A stretch of DNA of 64,000 bases, from the NCBI GenBank assembly GCA_004020875.1, contig SAPZ01000001.1, positions 434,001 to 498,000 of the forward strand, given 5' to 3'. A program made the position numbers and the translations under genes. Below are positions 15,987 through 48,517 of this stretch, piece by piece; positions within the stretch are counted from its first letter, which is position 1, and every line of letters starts with the position of its first letter. The stretch comes from Mesorhizobium sp. GTDB taxonomy: Bacteria; Pseudomonadota; Alphaproteobacteria; Rhizobiales; Rhizobiaceae. Under the pieces are notes generated by a model. The model was not told where the DNA came from and did not search any database. It saw only the letters and a program-made list of their open reading frames with translations.

Positions 15987-16000
15987 TTGATCTTGGACAA
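15987..16000 (+). promoter_or_regulatory. Weak FixK/FNR-type box
   Basis: TTGAT-CTTG-GACAA, one mismatch to TTGAY-N4-RTCAA, 66 bp before the start of the small lipoprotein at 16067. It is listed because the paralogous lipoprotein at 31321 also has such a site at similar distance. Confidence 0.35.
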
Positions 16001-16066
16001 ATCCATTGCCTTGGCGGAATGCCATAGTATCTCCGTCTATTGTCAATCCGTCAGGAGTAAAAGCAG

Positions 16067-16270
16067 ATGAAAGTGCTTATCGTCGCTTCGCTAGGCTTGG
16101 TGCTTGCCGGCTGCGTCAATGAGAGTCGCTATGTCTCCGTTCCGGGTCATGCCTACAAGACCGAACCTGGCTGTAAGCGCCATGAAACCCCTTCGAAGTT
16201 CGATCCCGACTGCGATTGTCCGAAGAAAGGCTACAAGGGTTTCAAACAACCGATTCCATGTCCGCTATGA
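16067..16270 (+). CDS. Small lipoprotein with FDPDCD motif
   Basis: A 67-aa predicted outer- or inner-membrane lipoprotein. The signal peptide MKVLIVASLGLVLAGC has a perfect lipobox (LAGC, Cys16). The mature part contains KFDPDCDCPKKGYKGF and five cysteines in all. A related motif (EFDPNCDEPRVGFKNF) occurs in the lipoprotein at 31043-31321, so the two are paralogues. A good ribosome binding site (CAGGAG) lies 11 nt before the ATG. The PRPP synthetase gene follows on the same strand after about 145 nt. The function is unknown. Confidence 0.8.
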   Translation: MKVLIVASLGLVLAGCVNESRYVSVPGHAYKTEPGCKRHETPSKFDPDCDCPKKGYKGFKQPIPCPL

Positions 16271-16414
16271 TGTGCGGCGGGAGTCGGGCTAATAGATGTC
16301 CGAGACTTCCTCGCAGCGGTCTCCTCTTAGATCAGGCAGATCGGCTCCTGGGAAGTGGAGGGCGGCGTGTCGCGGAGGACGACGTCCCATGGCAACCGCA
16401 TTGGTGAGATAACT

Positions 16415-17392
16415 ATGCGCTTTTTCGCCTTGAAAGGGACTGATCAACTGGGCGGAGGTGTCGCGCAAGCCTTGGGCGTTGACCTCGGCTCGCATGAAGA
16501 ACGCGAATTCGAGGATGGCGAGCACAAGGCTCGGCCCCTTGTGAGTGTGCGCGGTGAAGACGTCTATATACTCCATAGCCTCGCAGGCGAGCCTGGGGCG
16601 TCCCCTAACGATAAGCTCCTCAGGCTTCTCTTCTTCATCGCGACCTGTCGGGAAAACGGCGCTGCGCGCGTCACGGCGATCGCGCCCTATCTTGCCTATG
16701 CGCGCAAGGAGCGGCAGACCAAAGCGCGTGACCCCGTAAGCACGCGCTACGTGGCGCAGCTGTTCGAGGCGGTTGGTACCGAGTGCCTCATCACCCTCGA
16801 CGTTCACAATTTCTCGGCGTTTCAAAATGCCTTCCGTTGTCGAACGCTTCAACTCGATACGGGCGCCCTCTTTGTGCCAGCGCTACGCGAGCTCGCCGGC
16901 GCCGGGCCTATTGTGGTGTTTTCTCCTGACGGCGGCGGCGTGAAGCGCGCGCAGTTGGTGAAGGAAAGGTGCGAGACGGCAATGGGCAATGAAGTCGGGT
17001 TCGGTTTCATGGAGAAGCGCCGGAGCCGAGGGGTCGTCTCGGGCGACCTGTTTGCCGGCGATGTGAGCGGGAAGACCGTCTTTCTTGTCGACGATATGAT
17101 CAGCACTGGCGGTACGATGCTGAGGGCCGCGCGCGCCTGCCGGGAACGCGGCGCCAAGCAAGTCCACGCCATCGCCACCCACGGTCTGTTGGGCAAGGGT
17201 TCGGAAGCCCTGTTCATGGACCCGGCCATTGGGCGCATTGTCGTTACCGACAGCGTGGCGTCGGCATCGAAGGCTGGAGCCGGCCACGAAGCAAAGCTGC
17301 AGGTCCTGTCAACCGCGCCGCTGATTGCCCAGGCGATCAAGCGCCTGCATGCGAATGGCTCAATTTCCGAACTGGCCGGGATGGAGAGCTGA
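16415..17392 (+). CDS. Ribose-phosphate pyrophosphokinase family (PRPP synthetase), divergent copy
   Basis: A 325-aa protein with two phosphoribosyltransferase-fold halves. The flexible basic loop ARKERQTKARDPVSTRYVAQ near residue 105 and the PRPP-binding loop VFLVDDMISTGGTML near 225 are typical of ribose-phosphate diphosphokinase, which makes PRPP from ribose 5-phosphate and ATP. The sequence is more divergent than housekeeping Prs, so this is probably an accessory copy. The ATG at 16415 gives the family N-terminus (MRFFALKGTDQLGGG). The 3' end overlaps the convergent kinase-like gene by 56 bp. Confidence 0.85.
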   Translation: MRFFALKGTDQLGGGVAQALGVDLGSHEEREFEDGEHKARPLVSVRGEDVYILHSLAGEPGASPNDKLLRLLFFIATCRENGAARVTAIAPYLAYARKERQTKARDPVSTRYVAQLFEAVGTECLITLDVHNFSAFQNAFRCRTLQLDTGALFVPALRELAGAGPIVVFSPDGGGVKRAQLVKERCETAMGNEVGFGFMEKRRSRGVVSGDLFAGDVSGKTVFLVDDMISTGGTMLRAARACRERGAKQVHAIATHGLLGKGSEALFMDPAIGRIVVTDSVASASKAGAGHEAKLQVLSTAPLIAQAIKRLHANGSISELAGMES

Positions 17393-18377
17393 GTTCTTCC
17401 TTCGCGGCGGCGATGTAGGAGCGCGCCAGAGGCGGCCACCGGCAGGGCTCACGCACGATCGGGTCGAGCAGATGCGCCAAGCAAAGCCGTGCACGCACCA
17501 GCATCCGGAACGCACCATAGAAAGCCATGACTTCATCGTCGGGACGTCCGCCGAGGCGAAGCTCGAGCAAATCGACCAGGAGAGGGCGGACCCAGCCTGC
17601 GCCCAGCATCGTGCATTCCAGGCCCAGATAATTGATCTCGTCGTAGGGATCGATGATGCGCAGGGACCGATCGAATTCGAGACAGTCTATGACCTGGATG
17701 GGCGTGCCGATGTACACGTGCTCAGGCCGTAGGTCGCCATGTCCTTCGACAATGCGACCCGCATCGATGCGAGCCTTGATGCTCGGGATTAGCTGCCTGA
17801 GGCGCGTGTCGGCGACGTCAAGTACGGGCAGGGCGGCATCCGAGACGCCGAGCGTCGGCTGACCCAGGATGGCTCGATTCACAGTCTGCTCTTTGATGAC
17901 GCTTTCCAGATACAGATTGCCGTCGTCGATCTCTGGCGGAGCGGCGGAGTAGAAGCCAGCTATCAGTTCGGCCATATTGTGAATGTCTCCTTCGGTCACA
18001 ACGCCTTCGCGAAGCCTGACGTCCAGCAAGTCGGCCCGAGGCAGCCGTTTCATCTCGACCAGCCAATCTACGGTCCGCCCTTGTCCGCCAAGATTGAGCC
18101 TCCCCTCACGGGTGCATCGTAGTGGAACAACGGAGCAATAAGTATCGGCCGCAAGCCGCTTGTTCAGTCGCAGTTCCTCCTCACAGAAGAACCTGCGCCG
18201 GCCGAGCGTGCTGAAGTCGAGGAAGGGATATCGGACCGGCTTCTTCAGCTTGTAGACGCGGTCCTCAGTCAGGAAGACCCAGGACATATGCGTTTCCCGG
18301 GCCTCAACAAAGGATGCGGCGTGAGTATACGACCTCGCATCGCTCAGGAAGCGTACCTTTGTCGCCAGATCGATCAT
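17337..18377 (-). CDS. Aminoglycoside-phosphotransferase-like kinase (COG2187 type)
   Basis: A 346-aa protein-kinase-like fold enzyme. VYKLKKPVRYPFLDFST near residue 45 carries the nucleotide-binding lysine, VEGHGDLRPEHVYI near 215 holds the catalytic HGDLxxxH and VIDCLEFDRSLR near 232 the metal-binding Asp. It corresponds to the stand-alone N-terminal domain of COG2187 proteins, which often carry a second P-loop kinase domain that is absent here. The substrate is unknown and antibiotic resistance should not be assumed. The ATG at 18377 was preferred to a TTG two codons upstream. Confidence 0.8.
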   Translation of the reverse strand: MIDLATKVRFLSDARSYTHAASFVEARETHMSWVFLTEDRVYKLKKPVRYPFLDFSTLGRRRFFCEEELRLNKRLAADTYCSVVPLRCTREGRLNLGGQGRTVDWLVEMKRLPRADLLDVRLREGVVTEGDIHNMAELIAGFYSAAPPEIDDGNLYLESVIKEQTVNRAILGQPTLGVSDAALPVLDVADTRLRQLIPSIKARIDAGRIVEGHGDLRPEHVYIGTPIQVIDCLEFDRSLRIIDPYDEINYLGLECTMLGAGWVRPLLVDLLELRLGGRPDDEVMAFYGAFRMLVRARLCLAHLLDPIVREPCRWPPLARSYIAAAKEELSSPSRPVRKLSHSHAGA

Positions 18378-18519
18378 CGACAATCACTCTTGCAATCGCT
18401 TACGCAATACATCGAAACAGATCGACCAAACGGCGTGCCGCGCCTTGATGCGTGTCAACGAAGCCGGCGCTCCTTCGCGTATTGTGCCCTGTCGGACCGA
18501 TCCGACGAGGTGCTTCAGG

Positions 18520-19435
18520 ATGACCATTCAGACCGGCGTTCAGACTGTTCCCGCGCCGACTATCGCTTCACAAGATCCGCCGGCCGTCAACTTGTTGATC
18601 GCAGGCAGGCTGCGTGACTACGCCGATCTCCTGACCCAGCAAGGTGAGGATGGCTTTCGAGCCAGAGCCTTTCGGCGCGCCGCCGATGTGATCACGGCTC
18701 TCGACCGGCCGGTTGAGGAGATTCTCTCGCAGCATGGCCGTGAAGGACTGACTGCGCTGCCCGCCGTCGGAACGGGTATCGCCAGCGCGATTGCCGAGAT
18801 GGTCACCACCGGGCGCTGGTCGCAAATGGACAGGCTGCGGGGAGACCTTGCGCCGGAGGTTCTGTTCCGGACGATCCCAGGCATCGGCGCGAAGTTGGCC
18901 GATCTCCTTGCCAAGGATGGCCAGTTGGAGAGCCTGGAAGAGCTAGAACACGCTGTTCGGTTCGGCAAGGTTGCTGTGAGGGGTATCGGGCCGCGACGCC
19001 GGCGGATGATCGCCGCAGCCATCGCGGAACGCCTCGGGCGGCCGTTTTTCGTTACCGAGACCACGGTGGCTCGCCCGCCTGTCGCCATGCTTTTTGCAGG
19101 TGGACCGGATGTATCGCGAGCGCGCGGCGGCGGGACAGCTGCGCAAGATAGCGCCGAAGCGTTTCAATCCCACCGGCGATGCTTGGCTTCCCATCCTGCA
19201 TGCCCGCCACGGCGACTGGCATTTCACGGCCCTGTTCTCGAACACCCAGCTCGCCCACCAACTCAACAAAACGGCTGACTGGGTCGTCATCTACTATCAC
19301 AAGGAAGGCCAGCCCGATGGTCGCTGCACCGTGGTCACCGCCACACGCAGGCCATTGCTCGGGCGACGCGTGGTCCGCGGAAGAGAACCGGAAGACGAAA
19401 AGGAGATATCGAATGAAACGCGGAATTGGAAATGA
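18520..19435 (+). pseudogene. Helix-hairpin-helix (Pol-beta-N-like) DNA-binding protein, frameshifted at a T5 run
   Basis: The first frame (ATG 18520) encodes a DNA-polymerase-beta N-terminal-like domain: AGRLRDYADLLTQQGEDGFR, then two hairpin motifs LPAVGTGIASAIAEMV and IPGIGAKLADLLAKDG. The natural continuation (QVDRMYRERAAAGQLRKIAP, then NPTGDAWLPILHARHGDWHF) lies in the next frame from about 19094. Dropping one T from the T5 run at 19091-19095 joins the two perfectly, giving a protein of about 304 aa. This is either a real +1 frameshift, a sequencing error or, less likely, programmed slippage. Function is presumably DNA binding, perhaps repair. Confidence 0.7.
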
Positions 19436-19841: not shown

Positions 19842-19855
19842 TTGATGTGCATCAA
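19842..19855 (+). promoter_or_regulatory. FixK/FNR-type box (perfect palindrome)
   Basis: TTGAT-GTGC-ATCAA, a full consensus match, 52 bp before the universal stress protein start at 19908. Confidence 0.8.
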
Positions 19856-19907: not shown

Positions 19908-20735
19908 ATGATCTACACGACAATACTGGTTCAGCTCGACATCGATGCACCGGCGACGCCGAGGCTGATTTTCGCGCAGGAGATCGCCAGGAAATTCGAG
20001 GCAGATCTCATCGCTGTGACGGCAGCCGAAGCTTCCATGCTGGTGTCGCCGAGCGAAGCCTCGCTGGCTGCGGCAGAGGTCTTGCGTCAGCGGGCCCTCG
20101 ATATCGAGGATCGTATCAAGCAGCTCAAGGAAGAATTCCTTGCCGTCGTCGGCAACAACGAGCGCGCATCATGGCGCGCCGAGCTTGACGATCCGACGCG
20201 TGCTGTTGCCCTGCACGCTAGAGCGGCCGATCTGGTGATCACCGGCGCGCCCGCGGCGGCTGCCGCCGGCAACTTCCAAAGGACTGTGGATCCGGGCGCG
20301 CTGGTACTTTCGGCAGGCAGGCCGGTGCTGTTCGCGGCCGACGATCTCCGACCCTTTGGCGGCGAGCGGATCGTCGTTGCCTGGAAGGACTGCCGCGAGT
20401 CCCGGCGGGCGGTGGTCGATGCCATGCCCTTCTTGTGCGAGGCCAAGGAGGTGACCGTTTTCAGTGCTACCGAGGAAGGGACAGTCGCTGCTCGGGAAGG
20501 GGCGGCGGACATCGTCCGTTTCTTGATAAAGCACGGTGTGAATGCCCAATCCCAGGTGCTGGAACGCGGAGATTCCTCCGTTGGTGACACCATCATCGCC
20601 ACGGCCGAACAAATCGGAGCGGATCTCGTCGTCGCCGGCGGCTACGGCCATAGCAGGTTTCGCGAATGGGCGTTCGGCGGCGCAACGCGATCGCTGCTCC
20701 ATGCCGGCTCATTGCACAGGCTCCTGTCGAACTGA
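19908..20735 (+). CDS. Universal stress protein (tandem-domain length)
   Basis: A 275-aa protein of the UspA superfamily. The N-terminal half starts MIYTTILVQLDIDAPATP. The C-terminal half contains RIVVAWKDCRESRRAVVDAM and the ATP-binding signature VVAGGYGHSRFREWAFGG near residue 245. The ATP-binding loop is only recognisable in the second half, as usual for tandem Usps. It closely resembles the Usp at 48590 (GAYSHSRFREALFGG), suggesting duplication within this block. Its promoter carries a perfect FixK-type box, so induction at low oxygen is likely. Confidence 0.9.
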   Translation: MIYTTILVQLDIDAPATPRLIFAQEIARKFEADLIAVTAAEASMLVSPSEASLAAAEVLRQRALDIEDRIKQLKEEFLAVVGNNERASWRAELDDPTRAVALHARAADLVITGAPAAAAAGNFQRTVDPGALVLSAGRPVLFAADDLRPFGGERIVVAWKDCRESRRAVVDAMPFLCEAKEVTVFSATEEGTVAAREGAADIVRFLIKHGVNAQSQVLERGDSSVGDTIIATAEQIGADLVVAGGYGHSRFREWAFGGATRSLLHAGSLHRLLSN

Positions 20736-20929: not shown

Positions 20930-20943
20930 TTGACGCAGATCAA
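20930..20943 (+). promoter_or_regulatory. FixK/FNR-type box
   Basis: TTGAC-GCAG-ATCAA, full consensus match, 79 bp before the membrane-fusion protein start at 21023. Its position inside a possible longer reading frame (ATG-equivalent at 20906) supports the downstream start. Confidence 0.75.
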
Positions 20944-21022: not shown

Positions 21023-22144
21023 ATGCCCAACATTGACGTCATCGATGACGGTACTGAGTTGCTCCCTCCGAATGACCGTTCGACGAGCCGAATGCTCGTG
21101 CCGAGCCAGCCTGAACCCAGCCTTCCGGAGACCGTTCCCGCCGCCGTATATCGAGGGCGCCGGCTCTGGCTTGCACTGGCGCTGGTCGCGGTCACTGGTG
21201 CAGCGATAGGCGGATATTGGTGGCTGCATGCCGCTCCTGGGCTGCCCGCTGGTATCGCCTCGGGCAACGGCAGGGTCGAGGCAGACGAGATCGACATCGC
21301 GGCCAAGTTTAGCGGTCGTATCGCTGCGCTCCTCGTTGATGAGGGAGATGTCGTTCACGCCGGCCAGGTGGTCGCGCGGATGGACACTCAAGACCTTGAG
21401 ATGTCGCTCCGCAAAGCCGAGGCACAGGTGCTGGGGGCCAATCGGATGCTCGACGAGGCGCGCGCAGGCGTCGAGCAACAGAGGGCCCAGGCCAAGCTCG
21501 CCGAGCAGCAGCTCACCCGCTCGATTGTCCTCGTCGACAAAGGCTATGCGACAGCCGAGATTCTCGACCAGCGCCAGCAGCAGATGAGCGCTGCCAATGC
21601 CGCGCTCGCCGCAGCCAATGCGCGCGTCGGGCAAGCCGAACAGACGCTTGCGGCCGCCAATCACGATGTCGATCTCTATCGGATCGACATCGCCGACAAT
21701 TCGCTCGTCGCCCCGCGCGACGGCCGCGTTCAATATCGTCTCGCCAATATCGGCGAGGTGATCGGCGCCGGCGGCAAGGTATTGACCATGATCGACACCG
21801 GCTATGTCTATATGGACATTTTCCTGCCCACGGCAGAAGCGGGTCGCACGACGGTAGGCAGCGCCGCGCGCATCGTGCTTGACGCCGCGCCTCAATCGCC
21901 AATCCCGGCTAAGGTCGTCTTTGTCTCCGGAGAGGCGCAGTTCACGCCGAAGACAGTGGAGACCAAGGCGGAACGCGACAAGCTGGTGTTCCGGGTCCGT
22001 GCGCGCGTTGACCCCGACTATCTGCGCGGTCACGCGGCGGAGATGAGTTCGGGCCTTCCCGGGCTCGCTTATGTGCGCCTCGACGGCGGTGCCGAGTGGC
22101 CGCCCTTTCTCGCGTTAGGGCATACGGATGATGCATCCCGCTGA
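21023..22144 (+). CDS. yhiI: HlyD-family periplasmic adaptor (YhiI-like)
   Basis: A 373-aa membrane-fusion protein. A cytoplasmic tail of about 45 residues precedes one TM segment (LWLALALVAVTGAAIGGYW). The lipoyl/barrel half-motifs follow (SGNGRVEADEIDIAAKFSGR and NSLVAPRDGRVQYRLANIGE) around a coiled coil of about 100 residues rich in Ala, Gln and Glu. Gene order matches E. coli yhiI-rbbA-yhhJ, where the adaptor partners an ABC-2 exporter. The stop overlaps the rbbA start by 17 nt, so translation is coupled. The FixK-type box upstream implies low-oxygen expression. Confidence 0.85.
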   Translation: MPNIDVIDDGTELLPPNDRSTSRMLVPSQPEPSLPETVPAAVYRGRRLWLALALVAVTGAAIGGYWWLHAAPGLPAGIASGNGRVEADEIDIAAKFSGRIAALLVDEGDVVHAGQVVARMDTQDLEMSLRKAEAQVLGANRMLDEARAGVEQQRAQAKLAEQQLTRSIVLVDKGYATAEILDQRQQQMSAANAALAAANARVGQAEQTLAAANHDVDLYRIDIADNSLVAPRDGRVQYRLANIGEVIGAGGKVLTMIDTGYVYMDIFLPTAEAGRTTVGSAARIVLDAAPQSPIPAKVVFVSGEAQFTPKTVETKAERDKLVFRVRARVDPDYLRGHAAEMSSGLPGLAYVRLDGGAEWPPFLALGHTDDASR

Positions 22145-24860
22145 AGTCATCGCCGTCGATGGGCTCTCTCACTCCTACGGTCGCACGCTCGCGCTCCACG
22201 GCGTAACGCTCAGGGTCCCAACCGGCGCACTCGTTGGATTGATCGGCCCCGACGGGGTTGGCAAATCGACCTTGCTCAGCCTGATCGCTGGGGCCAAACG
22301 CATTCAGACCGGCCGCGTGGAGGTTTTCGGCCGTGATATGGCCGACCAACGCCATCGTTCCGCCGTGTGTCCGCGCATCGCCTTTCTGCCGCAGGGGCTC
22401 GGCAAGAACCTTTATCCCGATCTCAGCGTCCGAGAGAATATCGATTTCTTCGGACGCCTCTTCGGCGAGCCGGCTGGCGAGCGCGCCCGGCGCATTGACG
22501 CCCTGCTCGAGGCGACCGGCCTGGCGCCCTTTCCCGACCGCCCGGCCAAGAAACTCTCAGGCGGCATGCGGCAAAAGCTCGGCCTCTGTTGCGCGCTCGT
22601 TCACGACCCCGACCTACTCATTCTTGACGAACCGACCACAGGCGTCGACCCTTTGTCGCGCCGGCAATTCTGGGAACTGATCGAACGCATGCGGGCGAGG
22701 CGGGCCGGCATGAGTGTGGTCGTAGCCACTGCCTACATGGAGGAGGCGGAACGCTTCGACGAGCTCATCGCGATGAACGCCGGACGGATCCTCGCTTCGG
22801 CCCCGCCGGCTGGACTAAAGCGGCTGACAGGGATGGGGAGCTTGGAGGAAAGCTTCATTGCGCTTTTGCCCGAGGCGGTTCGCGCCGGGCGTCGCGCGCT
22901 CTCCATTCCGCCGCGGCCGGCTGGTGAACACGAGGCAGTCATCATAGCTGATGGGCTCACTCGGCGCTTCGGCGAATTCGTAGCGGTTGATGGTGTGAGC
23001 TTTGCTATCGAACGCGGCGAGATCTTCGGCTTCCTCGGCTCGAACGGCTGCGGCAAGACCACCACGATGAAGATGCTGACCGGGCTGCTGCCGGCCTCAG
23101 AGGGCAAGGCCTGGCTGTTGGGGCAGCCGATCGATGCCACCAACATGCGCCTGCGCAGGCGTGTCGGCTACATGTCCCAGTCTTTCTCGCTCTACACCGA
23201 ACTCACCGTCAGGCAGAATCTCGATCTGCATGCCCGTCTCTTCCATATCGCCGCCGACAAAGGGAAAGTGCGCATCGCCGCGCTCATCGAGCGGTTCGGG
23301 TTCGGCCCCTATGTGGACCAGCGGGCATCGCAGCTGCCCCTGGGCATTCGTCAGCGGCTCTCGCTCGCTGTTGCAGTGGTGCACGAGCCGGAGCTCCTTA
23401 TCCTCGACGAGCCCACTTCGGGAGTTGATCCACTTGCTCGCGACAGCTTCTGGGAGCTTCTCGTCGAGCTTTCACGGCGGCAAGGGGTTACCATCTTCGT
23501 TTCGACCCATTTCATGAACGAGGCTGCGCGTTGCGATCGCGTTGCGCTCATGCATGGCGGCAGGGTGGTTGCCGCCGGCACGCCGACCGAATTGTGCGAA
23601 GCCAAGGGGGCAGCCGATCTAGAAGATGCCTTCATTGCCTATCTGCAGTCAGCAGGGGGCGAAAGCTCGAGCCCGGTCAGCAGCCCACCTGAGCCGGAGC
23701 GCGCCGCGACCTCTCCGTACGCGCGCGTGGTACCCAGGGCCGGCTTCAGCCCAGGACGGCTTTTCGCCTATTCCTGGCGTGAGGCGCTGGAGCTTTGGCG
23801 CGATCCGGTGCGGCTCGGCTTCGCACTTCTCGGTACGGCATTTCTCATGGTCGTCTTCGGACTAGGCATCAATACCGACGTAAATCAGGTGACTTTCGCC
23901 GCACTGGACCGCGATAACACGCCGGAAAGTCGAGCCTATCTGCAGGAGTTTCGCGGATCGCCCTATTTTGCAGAACGGGAAACACTGGCCGGCTATGACG
24001 ACCTTGATCGGGCGCTGCGCAGCGCCGCCTTCGCGCTGGCCATCGAGGTGCCGCCGGGCTTCGGCCGGGACATCCGACGCGGGGCGGCACCCGAGATTGG
24101 CGCCTGGGTCGACGGCGCCATGCCTTTCCGTGCCGAAACGGTCCGCGGATACCTCACCGGCCTGCATCAGCAATACGTCGCCGGTCTCTCGGCCAAGGCG
24201 GGCGATCGCTCAGCGTCGCCGGTTATTGAGACTCGATTCGTCTACAATCAGGACTTCAAGAGCATCTTCGCCATGGTGCCCGGGACGATCGCCATGCTGC
24301 TCGCATTCATGCCAGCAATGCTGATGGCTGTTGGCGTCGTCAGGGAGAAGGAACTGGGTTCGATCGTCAATCTCTATGTCACTCCCGTCACGCGGCTCGA
24401 GTTTCTACTGGGCAAGCAACTGCCCTACGTCATCCTTTGCCTGATCGCCTTCCTTGTCCTCTTCGTAATGGCTGTCTTGCTATTCGAAGTGACGCTCAAA
24501 GGAAGCTTCTGGGTGCTTCTTCTCGGCGCGCTGCTTTACCTGACGGCGATGACCGGCTATGGCTTGGTGATATCGGCATTCACGCGGACCCAGATTGCCG
24601 CGCTCTTCGTTGCGGGGATCATGACCTCGCTGCCCGCCGTGCAGTTTTCCGGCATGTTGGCGCCCGTCTCCTCGCTGGTGGGTTTTCCGGCGTTCATGGC
24701 GCATACTTTCCCGGCCATGTATTTCCTGCGCATCTCGGTCGGCACCTTCACCAAGGCGCTCGGCTTCCAGGAGCTTGCCGGAAGCCTGTTGGCGCTCGCG
24801 GTCTTCATCCCGATCCTCATCTTGATCAGCCTGGCGTTCCTGCGCCGCCAGGAGCTATGA
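22128..24860 (+). CDS. rbbA: RbbA-like fused ABC protein: two ATPase domains plus ABC-2 permease
   Basis: A 910-aa protein, the length of E. coli RbbA (911). Domain order: ATPase 1 (Walker A GPDGVGKST at 40-48, signature LSGGMRQKL, Walker B LLILDEP), ATPase 2 (Walker A GSNGCGKTT near 304-312, Walker B LLILDEP; its signature LPLGIRQRL is degenerate), then a membrane domain from about 540 with six predicted helices. RbbA is known as a ribosome-associated ATPase, although this architecture also looks like an exporter. The adaptor upstream and YhhJ-like permease downstream favour a membrane complex. The gene is in the FixK-box block together with the HPF-like factor. Confidence 0.88.
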   Translation: MMHPAEVIAVDGLSHSYGRTLALHGVTLRVPTGALVGLIGPDGVGKSTLLSLIAGAKRIQTGRVEVFGRDMADQRHRSAVCPRIAFLPQGLGKNLYPDLSVRENIDFFGRLFGEPAGERARRIDALLEATGLAPFPDRPAKKLSGGMRQKLGLCCALVHDPDLLILDEPTTGVDPLSRRQFWELIERMRARRAGMSVVVATAYMEEAERFDELIAMNAGRILASAPPAGLKRLTGMGSLEESFIALLPEAVRAGRRALSIPPRPAGEHEAVIIADGLTRRFGEFVAVDGVSFAIERGEIFGFLGSNGCGKTTTMKMLTGLLPASEGKAWLLGQPIDATNMRLRRRVGYMSQSFSLYTELTVRQNLDLHARLFHIAADKGKVRIAALIERFGFGPYVDQRASQLPLGIRQRLSLAVAVVHEPELLILDEPTSGVDPLARDSFWELLVELSRRQGVTIFVSTHFMNEAARCDRVALMHGGRVVAAGTPTELCEAKGAADLEDAFIAYLQSAGGESSSPVSSPPEPERAATSPYARVVPRAGFSPGRLFAYSWREALELWRDPVRLGFALLGTAFLMVVFGLGINTDVNQVTFAALDRDNTPESRAYLQEFRGSPYFAERETLAGYDDLDRALRSAAFALAIEVPPGFGRDIRRGAAPEIGAWVDGAMPFRAETVRGYLTGLHQQYVAGLSAKAGDRSASPVIETRFVYNQDFKSIFAMVPGTIAMLLAFMPAMLMAVGVVREKELGSIVNLYVTPVTRLEFLLGKQLPYVILCLIAFLVLFVMAVLLFEVTLKGSFWVLLLGALLYLTAMTGYGLVISAFTRTQIAALFVAGIMTSLPAVQFSGMLAPVSSLVGFPAFMAHTFPAMYFLRISVGTFTKALGFQELAGSLLALAVFIPILILISLAFLRRQEL

Positions 24861-24864
24861 CGCC

Positions 24865-26070: not shown

Positions 26071-26499
26071 TCAGCCGCTCACGTAGCGAACAAGCTGATC
26101 GATGTTGAATTCCCGATCGGCGATCATGCTCTTCATCAGGTCACCGATGGAAATCACTCCCTCCAGGCGCCCTTCGCGTATGACGGGCAAGTGCCGGATT
26201 CGTTTCTCAGTCATCAGCGCCATACAGTATTCAGCTGTCTGGTACGGTTCCACGAAGACGACGTGCTTTTCCATGACCTCGCGAACCAATGTCTTCGGCG
26301 ACGATCTACCCCTTAAGAAGACGTTCCTAGCGTAGTGCCGCTCGGTGAAGATGCCCACGAGGCGGTCTCCGTCCTTGATCAGCACCGCGCCCACGTTCTT
26401 TGCTTCCATGAGCTGTAACGCGTGAAGCACCGTATCTTCAGGGCGGACGGAATAGACGTCGTGACCCTTGGCGTCGAGGATTTGCTGAACGGTGGTCAT
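26071..26499 (-). CDS. CBS-domain-pair protein
   Basis: A 142-aa stand-alone Bateman module: CBS1 (QILDAKGHDVYSVRPEDTVL ... IFTERHYARNVFL) and CBS2 (MEKHVVFVEPYQTAEYCMAL ... GVISIGDLMKSMI). Such proteins bind adenine nucleotides and act as energy sensors; the mycobacterial dormancy protein Hrp1 is an example. The ATG at 26499 has an ideal GGAGG seven nt upstream; an open extension to 26604 runs through the regulatory box and is rejected. It is divergent from ppsA, each with its own box. Confidence 0.9.
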   Translation of the reverse strand: MTTVQQILDAKGHDVYSVRPEDTVLHALQLMEAKNVGAVLIKDGDRLVGIFTERHYARNVFLRGRSSPKTLVREVMEKHVVFVEPYQTAEYCMALMTEKRIRHLPVIREGRLEGVISIGDLMKSMIADREFNIDQLVRYVSG

Positions 26500-26590: not shown

Positions 26591-26604
26591 TTGACGATGA
26601 TCAA
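26591..26604 (-). promoter_or_regulatory. FixK/FNR-type box
   Basis: TTGAC-GATG-ATCAA, full match, 91 bp upstream of the CBS protein start at 26499 on the reverse strand. Confidence 0.75.
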
Positions 26605-26726: not shown

Positions 26727-26740
26727 TTGACGGAGATCAA
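26727..26740 (+). promoter_or_regulatory. FixK/FNR-type box
   Basis: TTGAC-GGAG-ATCAA, full match, 53 bp upstream of the ppsA start at 26794. The two boxes in this divergent region each lie at a distance that suits one of the genes. Confidence 0.78.
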
Positions 26741-31391: not shown

Positions 31392-31405
31392 TTGTCCAAG
31401 ATCAA
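31392..31405 (-). promoter_or_regulatory. FixK/FNR-type box, one mismatch
   Basis: TTGTC-CAAG-ATCAA, with one core difference (T for A at position 4), 70 bp upstream of the lipoprotein start at 31321. Confidence 0.55.
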
Positions 31406-32238: not shown

Positions 32239-32252
32239 TTGATGCGCGTCAA
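32239..32252 (-). promoter_or_regulatory. FixK/FNR-type box
   Basis: TTGAT-GCGC-GTCAA, full match to TTGAY-N4-RTCAA, 56 bp upstream of the exported protein start at 32182. Confidence 0.72.
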
Positions 32253-32384: not shown

Positions 32385-32398
32385 TTGATGCTTATCAA
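32385..32398 (+). promoter_or_regulatory. FixK/FNR-type box (perfect half-sites)
   Basis: TTGAT-GCTT-ATCAA, 97 bp upstream of the universal stress protein start at 32496. Confidence 0.8.
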
Positions 32399-34198: not shown

Positions 34199-34212
34199 TT
34201 GACCGGGATCAA
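34199..34212 (-). promoter_or_regulatory. FixK/FNR-type box
   Basis: TTGAC-CGGG-ATCAA, full match, 59 bp upstream of the HPF-cold-shock gene start at 34139. Confidence 0.75.
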
Positions 34213-34654: not shown

Positions 34655-34668
34655 TTGCTTCAAATCAA
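34655..34668 (+). promoter_or_regulatory. FixK/FNR-type box, one mismatch
   Basis: TTGCT-TCAA-ATCAA, 69 bp upstream of the small protein start at 34738. Confidence 0.55.
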
Positions 34669-35661: not shown

Positions 35662-35675
35662 CTGATTCAAATCAA
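35662..35675 (+). promoter_or_regulatory. FixK/FNR-type box, one mismatch
   Basis: CTGAT-TCAA-ATCAA, 55 bp upstream of the glucose-type binding protein start at 35731. Confidence 0.55.
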
Positions 35676-36994: not shown

Positions 36995-37008
36995 TGACAG
37001 GCAGGGCT

Positions 37009-37026: not shown

Positions 37027-37120
37027 GGTCCTCATGGGCTGCGGTACGATATCGAAACAACACCGCCGGCGATCCCGCAAAATCGCCGATCATAAAGCTA
37101 CCGAGCGGGGAATTTGAGGA

Positions 37121-38913: not shown

Positions 38914-38916
38914 ATC

Positions 38917-40195: not shown

Positions 40196-40209
40196 TTGAT
40201 CGGCGTCAA
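40196..40209 (+). promoter_or_regulatory. FixK/FNR-type box
   Basis: TTGAT-CGGC-GTCAA, full match, 46 bp upstream of the 73-codon gene at 40256 that leads the acetyl-CoA operon. Confidence 0.72.
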
Positions 40210-40255: not shown

Positions 40256-40477
40256 ATGGAAATCCGGATGGAAGTCGACGTTCACGTGACCAACGTTTCG
40301 CTAGCATTTCCTGCGACCGCGGTGCGCGGGCAAATGCACTTCCACCGGAGCGGCATCTCTGGATCGGCAGTCGGTCGACCTCAGGCGGGTACTCAAGTCT
40401 TCTTCGTTGAGGTGCAACCCGAAAGGGCAATTTGGGCCAGCACGGCCTTGCTAATGGGAAAGCCTGGCACACGATGA
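40256..40477 (+). CDS. Small hypothetical protein leading the acs-pdh operon
   Basis: A 73-aa protein with no domain I recognise, starting [20 protein letters not shown]. It is supported by context: an ATG after GATGGGGGTGTC, a FixK-type box 46 bp upstream and an exact ATGA overlap with the acetyl-CoA synthetase gene. A longer in-frame start at 40160 would run through the box. It could be a regulatory leader or an accessory subunit. Confidence 0.55.
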
Positions 40478-42261: not shown

Positions 42262-43244
42262 GCCAGAAGCCTCACATCGACCGCGAGTCCGGCCGGCACT
42301 TGTTCAAACAGATGCTGCGGATCAGGCGGTTCGAGGCCAAGTGCGCCGAACTCTATCAGGCCCAGAAAATCCGCGGCTTCCTGCATCTTTATGACGGCGA
42401 GGAGGCGGTTGCCCTCGGCGTCATGCAGGCGCTGGAGGATCGCGATGCGGTCGTGGCCACCTATCGGGATCACGGCCACGCGATCGCTCGAGGCCTGCCC
42501 ATGGCCACGCTCATGGCGGAGATGTACGGCAAGATGGAAGGGTGCTCGCGCGGACGTGGCGGCTCGATGCACTTCTTTGATCGCGCCCGACGCTTCTATG
42601 GCGGTAACGCGATCGTCGGCGGCGGCCTGCCGCTCGCCATCGGCATTGCCATGGCCGACAAACAGCTTCGCCCTGGAGCCGTGACAGCCTGTTTCTTTGG
42701 CGAAGGTGCCGCCGGTGAGGGCGCGTTTCACGAAAGCATCAACCTCGCGGAGCTGTGGGATTTGCCCGTGCTCTTCGTCTGCGAGAATAATCTCTATGCC
42801 ATGGGTATGCCGCTCGAATTGGCGGAAGCCGAAACGAATATTTCGCGCAAGGCTGCTGCCTATCGCACCCCGAACGAGGCGGTCGACGGCATGAACCCAA
42901 TCGCCGTGGAGGCTGCTGCCAGGAGGGCGGTCGATTCGATTCGGGGCGGCAACGGTCCCTACTTCCTGGAATGCCGCACCTATCGTTTCCGTGCTCACTC
43001 CATGTTCGATGCGCAGCTCTACCGCACCCGCGAGGAGATCGAGCTGTGGAAGGAACGCGACCCCCTTCCGCGCATGCAGAAGTGGCTGGAGGAAACCCAT
43101 ATGCTCTCGCCGCAGGAACTGCGCGGGATCGAGGCGGACGTTGAGGCCGAGATCGGCAAGGCGGTGGCCTTCGCGGAACAGGGGCAATGGGAAAAGATCG
43201 AGGAGCTAGAACGCTTCGTGCTGGTCGACGAGGTGCCCGAATGA
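42258..43244 (+). CDS. pdhA: Pyruvate dehydrogenase E1 component, alpha subunit
   Basis: A 328-aa thiamine-diphosphate enzyme subunit. [11 protein letters not shown] near residue 73, [10 protein letters not shown] near 97 and the ThDP/Mg motif [20 protein letters not shown] near 145 ending in CENN are typical of PDH-type E1 alpha. The motif has GEG where GDG is usual. Start and stop overlap the neighbours by ATGA. It should form a heterotetramer with the next gene product. Acetoin dehydrogenase is the nearest alternative, but the E1 signatures favour pyruvate. Confidence 0.88.
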
Positions 43245-44248
43245 AAGAGTTAGCCGCGAATGCGAGCACGAACCGGATGACCTATCGGGAGGCCTGCCGT
43301 CAGGCCATCCGCGAAGCTCTCATAGACGACCCCCGCACCCTTCTGATGGGCGAGGATGTCGGGCTCTATGGCGGCTGCTATGCCGTCTCCAAAGGTCTGC
43401 TCGCCGAGTTCGGGCCCCAGCGTATCCGCGACACGCCGCTTGCCGAGGCGACCTTCGTTGGAGCGGGCATAGGCGCCGCGATGGCGGGCCTGCGGCCGAT
43501 CGTGGAGATCATGACCTGCAACTTCAGCCTGCTCGCGCTCGACCAGATCATGAACAACGCCGCCACGATCCCCCACATGTCGGGCGGTCAGTTCGCTGTT
43601 CCGTTGGTGATCCGTATGGCTACGGGCGCCGGACGGCAGCTTGCCGCCCAGCACTCTCACAGCCTGGAAGGCTGGTTCGCCCATATCCCCGGCCTGAAGG
43701 TCCTGGCACCCGGCACGATCGAGGACGCACGCTTCATGCTGAAGGCAGCATTGGCCGATCCGAACCCAGTCATCATCTTCGAGCACATCGTCCTCTACAA
43801 CGCCGAGGGTGACTTGGATCCCGACGTGACCAGTGTCGACATCGCCAAGGCGAGGATTCGAAGACATGGCCGCGACATAAGCATCCTGACCTATGGCAAC
43901 AGCCTGCCGAAGTCCTTGGCGGCTGCAGAGGTGCTCGCCGCTGAAGGTATCGAGGCTGAGGTTGTCGACCTGCGCGTGCTGCGCCCTCTGGACAACGCGA
44001 CCCTTTTCGAATCCGTCGCCCGCACGCGGCGCTGCATCGTCGTCGACGAGGGATGGAAGAGCGGGTCGATCTCCGCCGAGATCGCGGCGCGACTTTCAGA
44101 AGATCAGTTCTTCGAACTCGACGCTCCGATCCGGCGCATCTGCAGCCGCGAGATCCCGGTCCCATATGCGGCGCATATGGAAGAGGCGGCACTTCCGCAA
44201 ACCCCGCAGATCGTCGATGCTGCGCGCAGTCTGGTGAAGCCGCGATGA
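43241..44248 (+). CDS. pdhB: Pyruvate dehydrogenase E1 component, beta subunit
   Basis: A 335-aa transketolase-like subunit. Conserved segments are [20 protein letters not shown] near residue 30, [20 protein letters not shown] near 65 and [18 protein letters not shown] near 130, followed by a C-terminal swivel domain ([17 protein letters not shown]). It begins inside the stop codon of the alpha gene and ends inside the start of the E2 gene. It supplies the Glu that activates ThDP and contacts E2. Confidence 0.9.
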
Positions 44249-45465
44249 GCGATTTCACGATGCCGTCGCTAGGCGCCGACATGGAGAGCGGCAGGCTCGT
44301 CCAATGGCTCGTCAAGCCCGGCAGCGTGGTCAAGAAGGGCGACGTCGTCGCCGTCGTCGAAACGCACAAGGGCGCGTTCGAAATCGAGATATTCGAGGAA
44401 GGCGTCGTCTCCGAACTATGTGCCAAGGAAGGGGAGGAACTTCCGGTGGGCGCTCCTCTCGCGCGATTGACAAGGCCGGGGGAGCAGTCCGTTCCGAAGG
44501 CTCCCAAAGCTGCGCCTGAAGCCATCCCGGTCTCGGTGCCACTAGCCGTCGAGGTGGGGCGGGCCCCAGGAACACAGGCCGCACCTTTAGCCTCGTTCGT
44601 ACAGCCTTCGTCCCGGCCAAGGGCAAGTCCGGCCGCGCGCCGCAGGGCAGGTGAGCTCGGCATCGACCTGAACACGCTGAAGGGCACAGGTTTCGACGGA
44701 TCCGTAACCCTTGCCGATGTCGAATTGGCGGCAGCAGGAGGTGCGCCGCCGAAGGACCCTTCCTCTGCCGCGGCCCCTGCCACACGCCGCAGAGGGTTCG
44801 ATCCAAACGAGATGCGGCTGGCCATCGCGGCGGCCATGTCGCGCTCGAAGCGGGAAATCCCGCACTACTATCTCGCGAGCACTATAGACATGAGCCGGCC
44901 GCTTGCCTGGCTGGAGTCGTTCAACAGGCAGCGCAAACCCGAGGAGCGGCTGCTGCCTGCCGCGCTGTTGCTCAAGGCAACCGCGCTGGCGCTGCGTGAG
45001 TATCCGCAGCTCAATGGTTTCTGGGAAGATGGCAGGTTCCGGCCCGCGGACGGCGTCCATATCGGCTGGGCGATCTCGCTGCGCGGTGGCGGCCTCATTG
45101 CGCCTGCCATACACGAGGTCGACAAGCATTCATTGCAAAGCCTTATGGGGGCACTGCGCGATCTCGTGGGCCGCGCCCGCAGCGGCGGTATCCGCGGATC
45201 GGAAATGATGGATCCCACCTTCACTGTCACCAGCGTCGGCGATCGTGGGGCAGAGTCGGTGCTGGGTGTCATCTATCCGCCCCAGGTAGCCATAATGGGC
45301 TTCGGGCGAGTGATCGAGCGGCCGTGGATAGTGGATGGGCAAGTCACCGCACGCTCCCTAATCATCGCCTCGCTCGCGGCCGACCACCGAGCAAGCGATG
45401 GCCATCTTGGCGGTCTCTTCCTTTCCGCGGTCGACCGCTTCCTGCAGGAGCCTGAAGGCCTATGA
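44245..45465 (+). CDS. pdhC: Dihydrolipoamide acyltransferase E2, single lipoyl domain
   Basis: A 406-aa core subunit. Lipoyl domain 1-76 with the lipoylated Lys42 in [11 protein letters not shown], an Ala/Pro linker, a peripheral-subunit-binding domain near 125-160 ([20 protein letters not shown]) and a catalytic domain ending in [13 protein letters not shown] with the active-site His and Asp. No E3 (lipoamide dehydrogenase) gene follows, so E3 must be shared from another locus. It is ATGA-coupled to E1 beta and to the acyl carrier protein. Confidence 0.9.
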
Positions 45466-45728
45466 CCGAAGCCGAAGTCCGCCAGCTTGTCTGCGACATT
45501 CTATCCGACATCGCACCGGAAACAGACCCCGCCATGCTGTCCGGCGGCAGGGACATCCGCGAGGGGCTGGACATCGATTCGATGGACTTCCTTAACTTCA
45601 TCATCGCGATGAGCAAGCGCGCCGGCGTTGCGATTCCCGAGGAAGACTATCCCAAGCTGTTCACCATCGACGGGGTCGTCGCCTATCTCACCAGCAGCGT
45701 GCAGCCGCAGGGGACAAGAAGCTCATGA
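45462..45728 (+). CDS. Acyl carrier protein within the pdh operon
   Basis: An 88-aa acidic four-helix carrier. The phosphopantetheine attachment site is Ser40 in LDIDSMDFLNF, followed by the usual helix III region (AGVAIPEEDYPKLFTIDG). It overlaps the E2 stop (ATGA) and its own stop overlaps the pfkB start (ATGA). A dedicated ACP locked between E2 and a sugar kinase is unexpected; possible roles are acceptance of the acetyl group or a lipoyl/octanoyl precursor. It is clearly not the housekeeping fab-cluster ACP by position. Confidence 0.88.
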   Translation: MTEAEVRQLVCDILSDIAPETDPAMLSGGRDIREGLDIDSMDFLNFIIAMSKRAGVAIPEEDYPKLFTIDGVVAYLTSSVQPQGTRSS

Positions 45729-46687
45729 GCATTGCACGTCCTGCTCCAATTCTGACCATAACGCTCAACCCTGCGGTCGATGTCTCGAGCGAGACGGAGA
45801 CGGTGCGCCCGGTCCGCAAGGTCAGAACCTCCAATGTCAGGTATGACCCCGGCGGCGGCGGCATCAACGTCGCGCGCGTGATCACAGGTCTGGGAGGAGA
45901 GGCCGAAGCCTATTTTCTGGCGGGAGGAGAAACGGGCTCACTGTTGAACCGCCTGCTTCAAGCCGAAGGAATCGACAGCCACCTCATGCCGATCCAGGGT
46001 CAGACAAGGATCAGCTTCATGGTTCGCGAGCACAGCACCGGCCTCGAATATCGTTTTGTCCCCGAAGGACCTCCCGTGCAGCCTCGGGAACTGGAGCGCT
46101 GTCTGGATATCGTTGCATCCCATAAGGGACAGTACGTCATCGCGAGCGGCAGCCTCCCCACGGACGCGCCTCCCGACATCTACGCGCGAATGGCGAAGCT
46201 GGCATCTGCTCGCGGCGCGAAATTCGTTCTCGACAGTTCCGGCCTGGGGCTTCAAACGACGCTGAAGCAGTCGCGGCTGTACCTTGTGAAACCGAGCCTT
46301 GGGGAATTGGAGCAGTTCGTCGGCCGCAAGCTCGATGAGGCCGGCGTTCGCCAGGCTGCATCCGACATCGTGGCCAGCGGCGCGGCCGAGCTGGTTGCGA
46401 TCACCATGGGGGTTGATGGCGCACTACTCGCGAGCGCACTGGGGGTCCTGCGCGTACCGGCAATTCATGTGCGGATGCGCTCCGCCCTCGGCGCGGGCGA
46501 CAGCTTCTTGGGGGCGATGGTCTGGGCGCTTTCAGAAGGGCGGACTCCGGAGGAGGCATTCCGCTTGGGCATTGCGGCTGGAGCCGCCGCCGTCATGAAA
46601 CCGGGCTTTGAGCTTTGCCGCCGGGAGGAAGTCCTGGCTCTCAACGCGGCCGCCTTATCCGCCGTCGCCAGGAGCCAAACGCACTGA
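45725..46687 (+). CDS. pfkB: PfkB-type 6-phosphofructokinase
   Basis: A 320-aa ribokinase-fold sugar-phosphate kinase. It begins ITLNPAVDVSSETETVRPV and contains YDPGGGGINVARVITGLGG near residue 42, ASGSLPTDAPPDIYARMAKL near 140 and the catalytic GAGDSFLGAMVWAL near 255 (Asp base). It matches the E. coli PfkB (Pfk-2) pattern, so fructose 6-phosphate is the likely substrate; 1-phosphofructokinase or tagatose-6-phosphate kinase are alternatives. Many rhizobia lack phosphofructokinase, so the gene may open the Embden-Meyerhof route. Last gene of the coupled operon; convergent with glk. Confidence 0.85.
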   Translation: MSIARPAPILTITLNPAVDVSSETETVRPVRKVRTSNVRYDPGGGGINVARVITGLGGEAEAYFLAGGETGSLLNRLLQAEGIDSHLMPIQGQTRISFMVREHSTGLEYRFVPEGPPVQPRELERCLDIVASHKGQYVIASGSLPTDAPPDIYARMAKLASARGAKFVLDSSGLGLQTTLKQSRLYLVKPSLGELEQFVGRKLDEAGVRQAASDIVASGAAELVAITMGVDGALLASALGVLRVPAIHVRMRSALGAGDSFLGAMVWALSEGRTPEEAFRLGIAAGAAAVMKPGFELCRREEVLALNAAALSAVARSQTH

Positions 46688-46688
46688 G

Positions 46689-46709: not shown

Positions 46710-46714
46710 GATCT

Positions 46715-47707
46715 TCACGACAAGAATTCTGCCCGGGACAATGCGACGGCTGCCCCACGCAGGCCCGCGTCAAGCGCCTTGATCACATATATCGGTATCG
46801 GTGCCAGGAAGGACGAAAGGCGGCCCTTTGATTGATACTCCCTGTGGAAGAATGCCAGACGGAAAGCCGTAGCTTCCGACGGGTCGAACACTCTTGCGGG
46901 GATGCCACCGCCGAGATAGACGCCGCCGCGCGCGCTATAGGCAAGGGCCATGTCCCCGGCAAAGCGGCCCAGCCATTTCTCGAGGTAGCCAAGGGACTCA
47001 AGCGCGAGACGATCCTCGCCGTGCAGCGCCTGTTCCACGATCTCAGGCGCTGACGTCAGTTCCGCCGCGACACCCCGCATCTCCGCCAATGCCGTGTAAA
47101 TCCTGACAAGTGCCGGACCGGAAATCAGACGTTCCGCCGAGATGTGTGTCTCGTCCTTCGCGATGAGCTTGATGAGCGAAAGTTCATCCGCATCTTCGGC
47201 TGCGAAGGAAATGTGGCCGCCTTCGCTGGGAACGGCGATCCACCCCGATGGAGAGAAGACAAGCCCGGCAACTCCAAGGCCAGTGCCTGGTCCGAGCACC
47301 ACCTTGGGCGCGTGATCAACCGGGTCTTTGCCTCCGATCTTGAGAAGATCGTGTGGGCCCAGGAAGGGCAGGACAAGCGCGAGCGCTTCGAAATCATTGA
47401 CCGCATGGACGTATTTCGCGCCTGTCGCCAGGCACAGATCCTTGCGCGAGAAAGACCAGGGCAGGTTGGTCATCCGAATGGTCTCGCCCGACACAGGGCC
47501 GGCAATCGCGAAGCCGGCAAGGGATGGCCGGTGCGGGATGCAATCCAGATAGGCTTTGATGGCGGCTTGGAGCGAAGGAAACATGTCGCACCGAAAGGCG
47601 GCGAAATGGTCGATCGTGAGTTCGTCGATATCCGCGATCGCAAACCGCGCGTTGGTGCCGCCTATGTCGGCCACAAGGGCAGTGCGGGATTTGATGGTGG
47701 AAGCCAT
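46715..47707 (-). CDS. glk: Glucokinase
   Basis: A 330-aa Glk-family kinase (not ROK). Phosphate-1 motif LVADIGGTNARFAIAD near residue 12, catalytic region VHAVNDFEALALVLPF near 100, VVLGPGTGLGVAGLVF near 137 and VPSEGGHISFAAED near 160, and the C-terminal GGVYLGGGIPARVF. It phosphorylates glucose delivered by the ABC transporter at 35731-40023. A perfect FixK-type box lies 107 bp upstream, so uptake, phosphorylation, PfkB and pyruvate dehydrogenase would share control. Confidence 0.93.
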   Translation of the reverse strand: MASTIKSRTALVADIGGTNARFAIADIDELTIDHFAAFRCDMFPSLQAAIKAYLDCIPHRPSLAGFAIAGPVSGETIRMTNLPWSFSRKDLCLATGAKYVHAVNDFEALALVLPFLGPHDLLKIGGKDPVDHAPKVVLGPGTGLGVAGLVFSPSGWIAVPSEGGHISFAAEDADELSLIKLIAKDETHISAERLISGPALVRIYTALAEMRGVAAELTSAPEIVEQALHGEDRLALESLGYLEKWLGRFAGDMALAYSARGGVYLGGGIPARVFDPSEATAFRLAFFHREYQSKGRLSSFLAPIPIYVIKALDAGLRGAAVALSRAEFLS

Positions 47708-47814: not shown

Positions 47815-47828
47815 TTGATTCATATCAA
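47815..47828 (-). promoter_or_regulatory. FixK/FNR-type box (perfect half-sites)
   Basis: TTGAT-TCAT-ATCAA, 107 bp upstream of the glk start at 47707. Confidence 0.78.
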
Positions 47829-47854
47829 AGGCCATTCGTGCTGTGCATACGCTG

Positions 47855-48280
47855 TCAGCGCCTGATCGTTATCACGGTTGATCTCCGGCCATACGATCTC
47901 ACCAGACCAAACAGGATTCGGGCATTGTCTGGATGAAGCCGGACGCATCCGTGTGAAACCGGGCGGCCCAGTCGTCTGATCTCCCAAGTGCCGTGAATTG
48001 CATACCCGCCGTAAAAGAAGATCGAGTAGGGCATCGGAGCACTGTCGTATTTGCTTGAATACCAGACCCGCTCAAGCCGGATGGGATGGAATCGCCCGAT
48101 CGGGGTCCGATACCCCCGCCGGGCGGTGGACACCAACCATCTGTAGGTAGAGCGACCGTCGACTTTCACGGTCATGGTTTGCTCGGAGAGATCGATCAGG
48201 ATGCCGAGTTGTGCCGCGTGAGCGGCGCGAGGGCACCACACCGCAACCATCAAAACAAGCACGAATGCGGACAGGCGCAC
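47855..48280 (-). CDS. L,D-transpeptidase (YkuD domain)
   Basis: A 141-aa exported peptidoglycan cross-linking enzyme. Signal peptide RLSAFVLVLMVAVWCPRAAHA, then the YkuD fold with ISTDLSEQT-like strand LIDLSEQTMTVKVDG, the His motif YAIHGTW near residue 95 and the catalytic SHGCVRL near 113 (Cys nucleophile). The GTG at 48280 after CGAAGGA is preferred; an open extension to 48364 would place the start on the regulatory box. Forming 3-3 cross-links is typical of stationary or dormant walls, consistent with the stress block. Confidence 0.88.
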   Translation of the reverse strand: MRLSAFVLVLMVAVWCPRAAHAAQLGILIDLSEQTMTVKVDGRSTYRWLVSTARRGYRTPIGRFHPIRLERVWYSSKYDSAPMPYSIFFYGGYAIHGTWEIRRLGRPVSHGCVRLHPDNARILFGLVRSYGRRSTVITIRR

Positions 48281-48355
48281 GATGGCAATCCTTCGGGCCA
48301 GGGAATTCTGAGAGTAGTTTGCCGCAATCGATGACGATCGACGCGGAGTCGCGCC

Positions 48356-48369
48356 TTGATCCAAATCAT
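48356..48369 (-). promoter_or_regulatory. FixK/FNR-type box, one mismatch
   Basis: TTGAT-CCAA-ATCAT on the forward strand, 75 bp upstream of the L,D-transpeptidase start at 48280. Confidence 0.55.
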
Positions 48370-48503
48370 TTTCTTGGTTGCAGTGGCGGATGGGGCGGAA
48401 GCACCGAACCTCCGAATGTGCAAGACGCTATGTCAGTCTGATCGCCGACGGGCTGGTTCAGTACCTACCTGAAGTAGCGCGTCGTATGCACGGATGTGGC
48501 GGT

Positions 48504-48517
48504 TTGATCCAACTCAA
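48504..48517 (+). promoter_or_regulatory. FixK/FNR-type box, one mismatch
   Basis: TTGAT-CCAA-CTCAA, 72 bp upstream of the universal stress protein start at 48590. Confidence 0.6.

Follow-up and report, generated by a model that had tools for sequence, protein, structure and literature searches.

Low-oxygen regulons have been described in several bacteria. In Bradyrhizobium diazoefficiens, a soybean symbiont, a cluster from bll4634 to blr4659, with universal stress protein (Usp), host-attachment, CBS, phosphoenolpyruvate (PEP) synthase, glucokinase and PfkB genes, is reported to be induced at 0.5% O2 (PMC6515984). Deletion of fixK2 is reported to lower expression of the Usp gene bll4644 20.9-fold, the host-attachment gene bll4645 10.6-fold and ppsA (blr4655) 14.2-fold, all three being listed with FixK2 boxes (PMC9104804). 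The low-oxygen-activated lxa locus of Burkholderia cenocepacia (BCAM0275-BCAM0323) is described as carrying six Usp genes together with BON, heat-shock and phosphofructokinase genes (PMC6127331, PMC3759415, PMC9733578). In this study, a 64-kb stretch of Mesorhizobium sp. DNA (contig SAPZ01000001.1, positions 434,001 to 498,000; hereafter the window) was analyzed, in which one short DNA switch, a FixK/FNR-type box or anaerobox, precedes sixteen genes or operons over 33 kb. These boxes are very probably FixK activator sites that its oxygen-sensing relative FnrN probably uses as well; jointly, the boxes would turn on a low-oxygen survival island in response to a drop in oxygen.

The product names of the window match those of the B. 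diazoefficiens FixK2 cluster, a likeness by name and not by DNA. Beyond that cluster, the window has RbbA, an HPF-cold-shock fusion, a sugar ABC transporter operon, an operon for a ligase, pyruvate dehydrogenase (PDH) and an acyl carrier protein (ACP), and a fixLJ pair. Some lxa product types also agree with those of the window by name, again not by DNA; however, the lxa locus is betaproteobacterial, and named lxa genes such as phbB were not found in the window by name. Since the B. diazoefficiens FixK2 genes and the lxa locus resemble the set in the window, this kind of regulon was already known. The anaerobox genes of Rhizobium leguminosarum (fnrN, fixNOQP, and fixGHIS) use the same type of box, TTGAT-N4-ATCAA, but the targets described there are respiratory and regulator genes, with hFixL-FxkR in place of FixLJ (PMC7888657). 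A literature search found no paper with a title on the FixK regulon of Mesorhizobium. The analysis yields a set of likely low-oxygen genes of a rhizobial genus, tested at the sequence level and linked to plasmid islands and to targets demonstrated in Bradyrhizobium. Survival at low oxygen is important to rhizobia both in nodules and in soil that is flooded.

An exact box was defined as TTGAYN4RTCAA (TTGAYNNNNRTCAA), and the reversed pattern was used as the control. The window contained 11 exact and 11 single-mismatch matches, 22 sites in total, against a chance level of 4.36 ± 2.01 sites with at most one mismatch (maximum 10) in 100 dinucleotide shuffles of the window. An earlier note on this DNA had listed nine exact and six single-mismatch boxes; all of these were present at their coordinates, but two exact boxes (18445 and 51870) had been missed. 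Its spacing of 46–107 bp between box and start codon was reproduced exactly when 16 boxes (10 exact and 6 single-mismatch) were re-measured with start codons of our own choice (Table 1). That several boxes settle the choice of start codon, as it had also stated, was borne out by the mechanical frames from 18445, 20906, 26604 (minus strand), 40160, and 48494, which start in or cross boxes. Anaeroboxes therefore occur upstream of genes above chance level, as in a FixK/FnrN regulon. Five more single-mismatch sites were located at 1117, 21782, 15872, 53354, and 56459, with those at 1117 and 21782 being intragenic. The exact box at 51870 lies between fixL, whose start is 247 bp away, and a 133-amino-acid (aa) frame with no Pfam match, whose start is 49 bp away.

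Promoter geometry was studied in 42 promoters picked and oriented by hand, 16 of them from the window, box 51870 excepted, and 26 from other parts of the genome, with three sites used both ways. In 23 of the 42 promoters, a −10-like hexamer (TANNNT, at least 2 of the 3 letters) started 22 nt after the box, the best shuffled offset reaching 15 in 1000 shuffled sets; on the opposite side of the box, which points away from the gene, no offset exceeded 7/42. Window promoters taken separately had the hexamer at offset 22 in 11 of 16 cases (shuffled maximum, 9). In relatives, 51 of 100 distinct promoters showed it at this offset (shuffled maximum, 28 in 500 sets), with 28 at offset 21, 17 at offset 23, and at most 18 further away. 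The centre of the box would thus lie about 41.5 bp upstream of the inferred start of transcription, the class II position for activation. This placement agrees with the activating anaeroboxes of R. leguminosarum, for which positions of −32 to −34 relative to the start site have been reported (PMC7888657). At the second position after the box, G was found in 71% of the promoters of this genome and 73% of those of relatives, which fits the published motif TTGANCNNGATCAANG (PMC4999443).

Conservation was assessed in orthologues sharing at least 45% identity over at least 60% of the query and having 300 bp of upstream sequence; identical aligned sequences were dropped, and loci L004 and L005, whose contigs are the same as those of genomes G010 and G028, were left out. 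Of the 126 operon-head orthologues, 63 had an exact box in the 300 bp upstream (77/126 with at most one mismatch), 85 of the 126 rows being PEP synthase alone. PEP synthase relatives had an exact box in 39/85 cases and the remaining operon heads in 24/41. Operon-internal orthologues had one in 2/56 (3/56 with at most one mismatch), and the reversed control at operon heads gave 0/126 exact and 1/126 with at most one mismatch. The median box-to-start gap in orthologues was 61 bp. No exact box was observed before PEP synthase in the sampled Actinobacteria or Novosphingobium. Because relatives keep the box at many of the same genes, a low-oxygen FixK regulon is likely. An origin of the boxes as chance matches or as a by-product of base composition, to which box 51870 and the intragenic single-mismatch sites at 1117 and 21782 would lend themselves in having no target, is barely credible; as a general account it is ruled out by the shuffles, the reversed pattern, the fixed −10 spacing, and the conservation.

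Gene identities were assigned from Pfam and NCBIfam matches. The response regulator of the window scored 293.5 bits against the NCBIfam FixJ equivalog (cut-off, 255). In the FixL-type kinase, the PAS domain gave a gap-free alignment to Sinorhizobium meliloti FixL (1d06, E = 1.6e-54) and retains an HDGY stretch, presumably the site of the haem histidine, and the kinase domain aligned to FixL constructs. The score of this protein with NCBIfam FixL was 533 bits, under the cut-off of 850, and its N-terminus matched DUF4118 with 28.3 bits, just below the cut-off of 28.4. Two more FixL-type kinases are present in the genome, on contigs C28 (54%) and C43 (58%).

The fixK gene is on a different contig from the window (C10:11791-12432), and the best PDB match of its product is FixK2 (4i2o). 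No cysteines are present from the ATG used; a longer frame adds a CCC run, unlike the FnrN spacing. In 30 loci among 53 fixK matches, the region before fixK was compared with the FixJ core from systematic evolution of ligands by exponential enrichment, GTAGTTTCCC (PMC4999443). A FixJ-like site was found in all 30 loci, exact in 23, with one mismatch in 6 and two mismatches in 1, and it begins 85–87 nt before the start codon; reversed GTAGTTTCCC within one mismatch occurred in 0/30. This fixK product is, then, a CRP/FNR protein without an N-terminal cysteine cluster, encoded behind a FixJ site. Inside the window, FixJ sites were weak matches at best (4 or 5 mismatches of 16). Five genomes (G006, G009, G042, G051, and G056; loci L192, L193, L197, L198, and L199) have a window-type fixL followed by fixK approximately 1.2–1.3 kb on, with fixJ in the same stretch. 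At the place of fixK beside fixLJ, the window has a universal stress gene, and no fixK match was found beside the window-type fixLJ in the window or in G004.

The distribution of these genes was determined in 61 genomes of the genus of the window (as defined by the tool), this genome included. The FixL-type kinase (E ≤ 1e-120) was detected in 45 genomes and FixK (E ≤ 1e-60) in 44; both were found in 44, FixL only in 1, FixK only in 0, and neither in 16. The median number of boxes per genome was 30.5 with FixK and 14 without (P = 7e-7, kinship ignored), the reversed pattern giving 5 and 5. Window-type PEP synthase (E threshold 1e-250) was present in 4/61 genomes, the ligase (E threshold 1e-150) in 2/61, and window-type FixL (at least 66% identity) in 10/61. 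The four genomes with PEP synthase had 62, 90, 59, and 47 boxes, compared with a median of 30 in the other FixK genomes (P = 1e-3, kinship ignored). G010, the genome with the most boxes (90), also had the most FixK matches (5, four of which were incomplete and at contig ends). Among the records covered by the search, which may lack those closest to the window, the nearest named relative was a Mesorhizobium metagenome-assembled genome, with PEP synthase 94% identical over residues 5–807, followed by Pseudaminobacter and other Mesorhizobium. Promoter geometry, orthologue conservation, the co-occurrence of FixL and FixK, and the FixJ-like site at fixK support the FixK/FNR reading of the boxes that the earlier note had put forward, and further support comes from Bradyrhizobium, in which genes with like names are reported to depend on FixK2.

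Two FnrN-type CRP/FNR proteins, with cysteines at positions 16, 19, 27 and 111 or 115, are encoded on contigs C43 and C31, and an exact box precedes the gene on C43 by 58 bp. FnrN, an iron-sulphur oxygen sensor, could be the main activator, with the contribution of FixLJ-FixK being small or confined to mild oxygen limitation. For R. leguminosarum UPM791, FnrN dependence has been reported for a small heat-shock gene that carries this box (PMC11784457), and genomes devoid of FixK keep boxes above the reversed control. However, the number of boxes tracks the presence of FixK, the like-named Bradyrhizobium genes are FixK2-dependent, and the fnrN-type gene on C31 has no box within one mismatch in the 400 bp upstream; we regard a leading role of FnrN as rather unlikely. 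It is much less probable still that the boxes serve a nitric-oxide-responsive DNR-type regulator and not an oxygen response. DNR sites are reported to be almost identical to FixK sites (PMC2908626), and 15 CRP-like helix-turn-helix matches above the Pfam cut-off were found in the genome, part of them classified, but it is FixL and FixK that co-vary as sensor and regulator, and the named products belong to stress and carbon metabolism, not denitrification.

In the whole genome, 62 exact boxes and 5 matches to the reversed pattern were found. The window, which makes up 1% of the genome, has 11 of the 62 (binomial P = 2e-11 if spread evenly). Six of the 62 were intragenic according to a rough gene finder that missed some genes, several island genes among them.

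Several points weigh against the assignment of these boxes to a FixK-driven island. The comparison with the rest of the genome that the earlier note had asked for gave a mixed outcome: the density of boxes here is far over the genome average but is equalled on contig C14, where 11 exact boxes at 3,094-31,557 (28.5 kb) adjoin GroEL-, Usp- and FtsH-like genes (named by eye from translations). The 26-kb contig C43, which also encodes one of the FixL-type kinases and an FnrN-type gene, has 6 exact boxes near Hsp20- and Usp-like genes (named by eye). The density in the window is thus real but not unique. The fixLJ pair of the window has no fixK beside it; fixJ orthologues had no box with at most one mismatch in 12/12 cases, and fixL orthologues had one in 3/9. 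An exact box is missing upstream of 46/85 PEP synthase relatives, the exact box at 51870 has no convincing target gene, and operon-head status was set partly from the boxes of the window itself. The two FnrN-type proteins would read the same type of box, FNR, FixK and DNR proteins being reported to recognise almost identical sites (PMC2908626). The median of 14 boxes in FixK-less genomes, compared with 5 for the reversed pattern, implies that another regulator uses some of them. In B. diazoefficiens, bll4644, bll4645, blr4655, and blr4658 are marked as outside the direct FixK2 regulon of 2008 (PMC6515984). Since orthologues and genomes have common ancestry, the counts and P values do not come from independent events.

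In the mechanism that we propose, FixL would lose oxygen from its haem and phosphorylate FixJ, which would bind the conserved site before fixK on C10. FixK would bind the boxes approximately 41.5 bp before the inferred start and aid RNA polymerase at the −10 element, which tends to start 22 nt downstream of the box. Judging from their family names, the products would together protect cells that lie idle; they comprise the universal stress and CBS proteins, the ribosome hibernation factor HPF, RbbA, PEP synthase with glucokinase and PfkB, and the acetate-CoA ligase/pyruvate dehydrogenase operon.

PEP synthase matches on plasmids amounted to 501 records, 135 of which covered at least 80% of the length. 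Six plasmid stretches were read, chosen among the 25 records listed of the 501. The numbers of exact boxes were 11 in R. leguminosarum pRL22b4, 11 in Sinorhizobium fredii pSF45436d, 13 in Rhizobium lentis p1, 9 in Agrobacterium pAtFPH-AT4a, 6 in B. savannae, and 0 in Methylocystis, and the reversed pattern was found 0 times in all six. The four Rhizobiaceae plasmid islands carry a PEP synthase 69–71% identical to that of the window, and their annotations contain, in varying sets, Usp, BON or CBS, glucokinase, host-attachment, and RbbA or HPF products, as in the window, and also Hsp20 and GroEL products; their gene order and gene set differ from those of the window. Plasmid pSF45436d was typed as conjugative, and it is called rich in stress genes, which the accessible text does not put in oxygen terms (PMC8552645). 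PEP synthase alone is no marker of the regulon, because the Methylocystis plasmid, with a PEP synthase of 74.5% identity, has no exact box in 32 kb. No match was found on plasmids for the protein encoded at 31574-32182.

With the thresholds used, the left-flank gene (5723-7882) was present in 4/61 genomes and the right-flank ROK-type gene (55105-56331) in this genome only. Flank genes being this rare, neither the boundaries of the island nor an empty site could be established; no tRNA gene, as an insertion site, was found in the window. The patchy, reshuffled presence and the plasmid relatives suggest, without proving it, a mobile regulon. The window thus likely carries a low-oxygen regulon of the FixK type, placed on an island that is accessory and frequently reshuffled. 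As a tentative extension, which we rate as slightly more doubtful than probable, the island may be a plug-in hypoxia regulon, in which cassettes of a promoter and its gene, each equipped with an anaerobox and a −10 element matched to it, pass between the chromosomes and plasmids of rhizobia, are freely rearranged and function immediately wherever the genome has FixK, a spare oxygen-sensor pair (FixLJ) being carried along. No paper naming a mobile low-oxygen island of rhizobia in its title or abstract opening was found in a search that left most subscription papers outside. With the boxes and genes listed here, it becomes testable whether an accessory island joins the oxygen network of its host simply by bringing boxed promoters.

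Table 1. Boxes and regulator genes in the window, with the genes that they precede and the occurrence of boxes before orthologues
Feature	Position	Strand	Gene or operon and distance	Box in orthologues
Single-mismatch box	15987..16000	+	66 bp before 67-aa lipoprotein-like open reading frame (ORF) (16067-16270)	
Exact box	18445..18458	+	61 bp before HHH_8-domain gene (18520-19278)	exact 2/2
Exact box	19842..19855	+	52 bp before universal stress protein gene (19908-20735)	exact 4/4
Exact box	20930..20943	+	79 bp before HlyD/RbbA/ABC-2 permease operon (21023-25989)	HlyD, exact 1/1
Exact box	26591..26604	-	91 bp before CBS-domain gene (26071-26499, -)	
Exact box	26727..26740	+	53 bp before PEP synthase gene (26794-29190), then CBS-BON gene (29196-29876)	
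Single-mismatch box	31392..31405	-	70 bp before 92-aa lipoprotein-like ORF (31043-31321, -)	
Exact box	32239..32252	-	56 bp before 202-aa secreted-looking protein gene (31574-32182, -)	exact 1/1
Exact box	32385..32398	+	97 bp before universal stress protein gene (32496-32921)	exact 1/3
Exact box	34199..34212	-	59 bp before S30AE/HPF-cold-shock fusion gene (33585-34139, -)	exact 2/3
Single-mismatch box	34655..34668	+	69 bp before 105-aa ORF (34738-35055)	≤1 mismatch 2/2
Single-mismatch box	35662..35675	+	55 bp before sugar ABC transporter operon (35731-40023)	exact 2/2
Exact box	40196..40209	+	46 bp before 73-aa ORF heading acetate-CoA ligase/PDH/ACP-like/PfkB genes (40474-46687)	acetate-CoA ligase, exact 3/8, ≤1 mismatch 5/8
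Exact box	47815..47828	-	107 bp before glucokinase gene (46715-47707, -)	exact 3/4
Single-mismatch box	48356..48369	-	75 bp before L,D-transpeptidase-domain gene (47855-48280, -)	≤1 mismatch 2/2
Single-mismatch box	48504..48517	+	72 bp before universal stress protein gene (48590-49369)	≤1 mismatch 2/2
fixJ response regulator gene	49501..50127	-	NCBIfam FixJ equivalog; best PDB match FixJ 5xso	
fixL-type gene	50117..51622	-	N-terminal DUF4118-like region, PAS domain, histidine kinase	
Exact box, no gene assigned	51870..51883			

The window encodes three universal stress proteins and two CBS proteins, one with BON, and also a ribose-phosphate diphosphokinase, a DUF3775 protein (19413), and an LPG-synthase membrane domain. 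The box at 18445 is also 67 bp before a divergent gene starting at 18377 on the minus strand. The S30AE/HPF-cold-shock fusion gene is followed by a host-attachment/baeRF gene (33089-33553, minus strand). No Pfam or NCBIfam family was matched by the 202-aa (minus strand) and 105-aa (plus strand) boxed proteins, and the two lipoprotein-like ORFs had zero Pfam matches. These two ORFs resemble each other by eye, and their boxes are the same imperfect 14 letters on opposite strands. Close relatives of the DUF3775 gene and of the universal stress gene at 19908 are adjacent on C14:1-38000 (loci L108-L109), where they flank a box. The gene order at 40474-46687 is acetate-CoA ligase, PDH E1 alpha, E1 beta, E2, acyl-carrier-like protein, and PfkB, an E3 gene not being among the genes named. 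Ligase and PDH genes again adjoin PEP synthase in loci L003, L013, L026, L039, L052, and L058.

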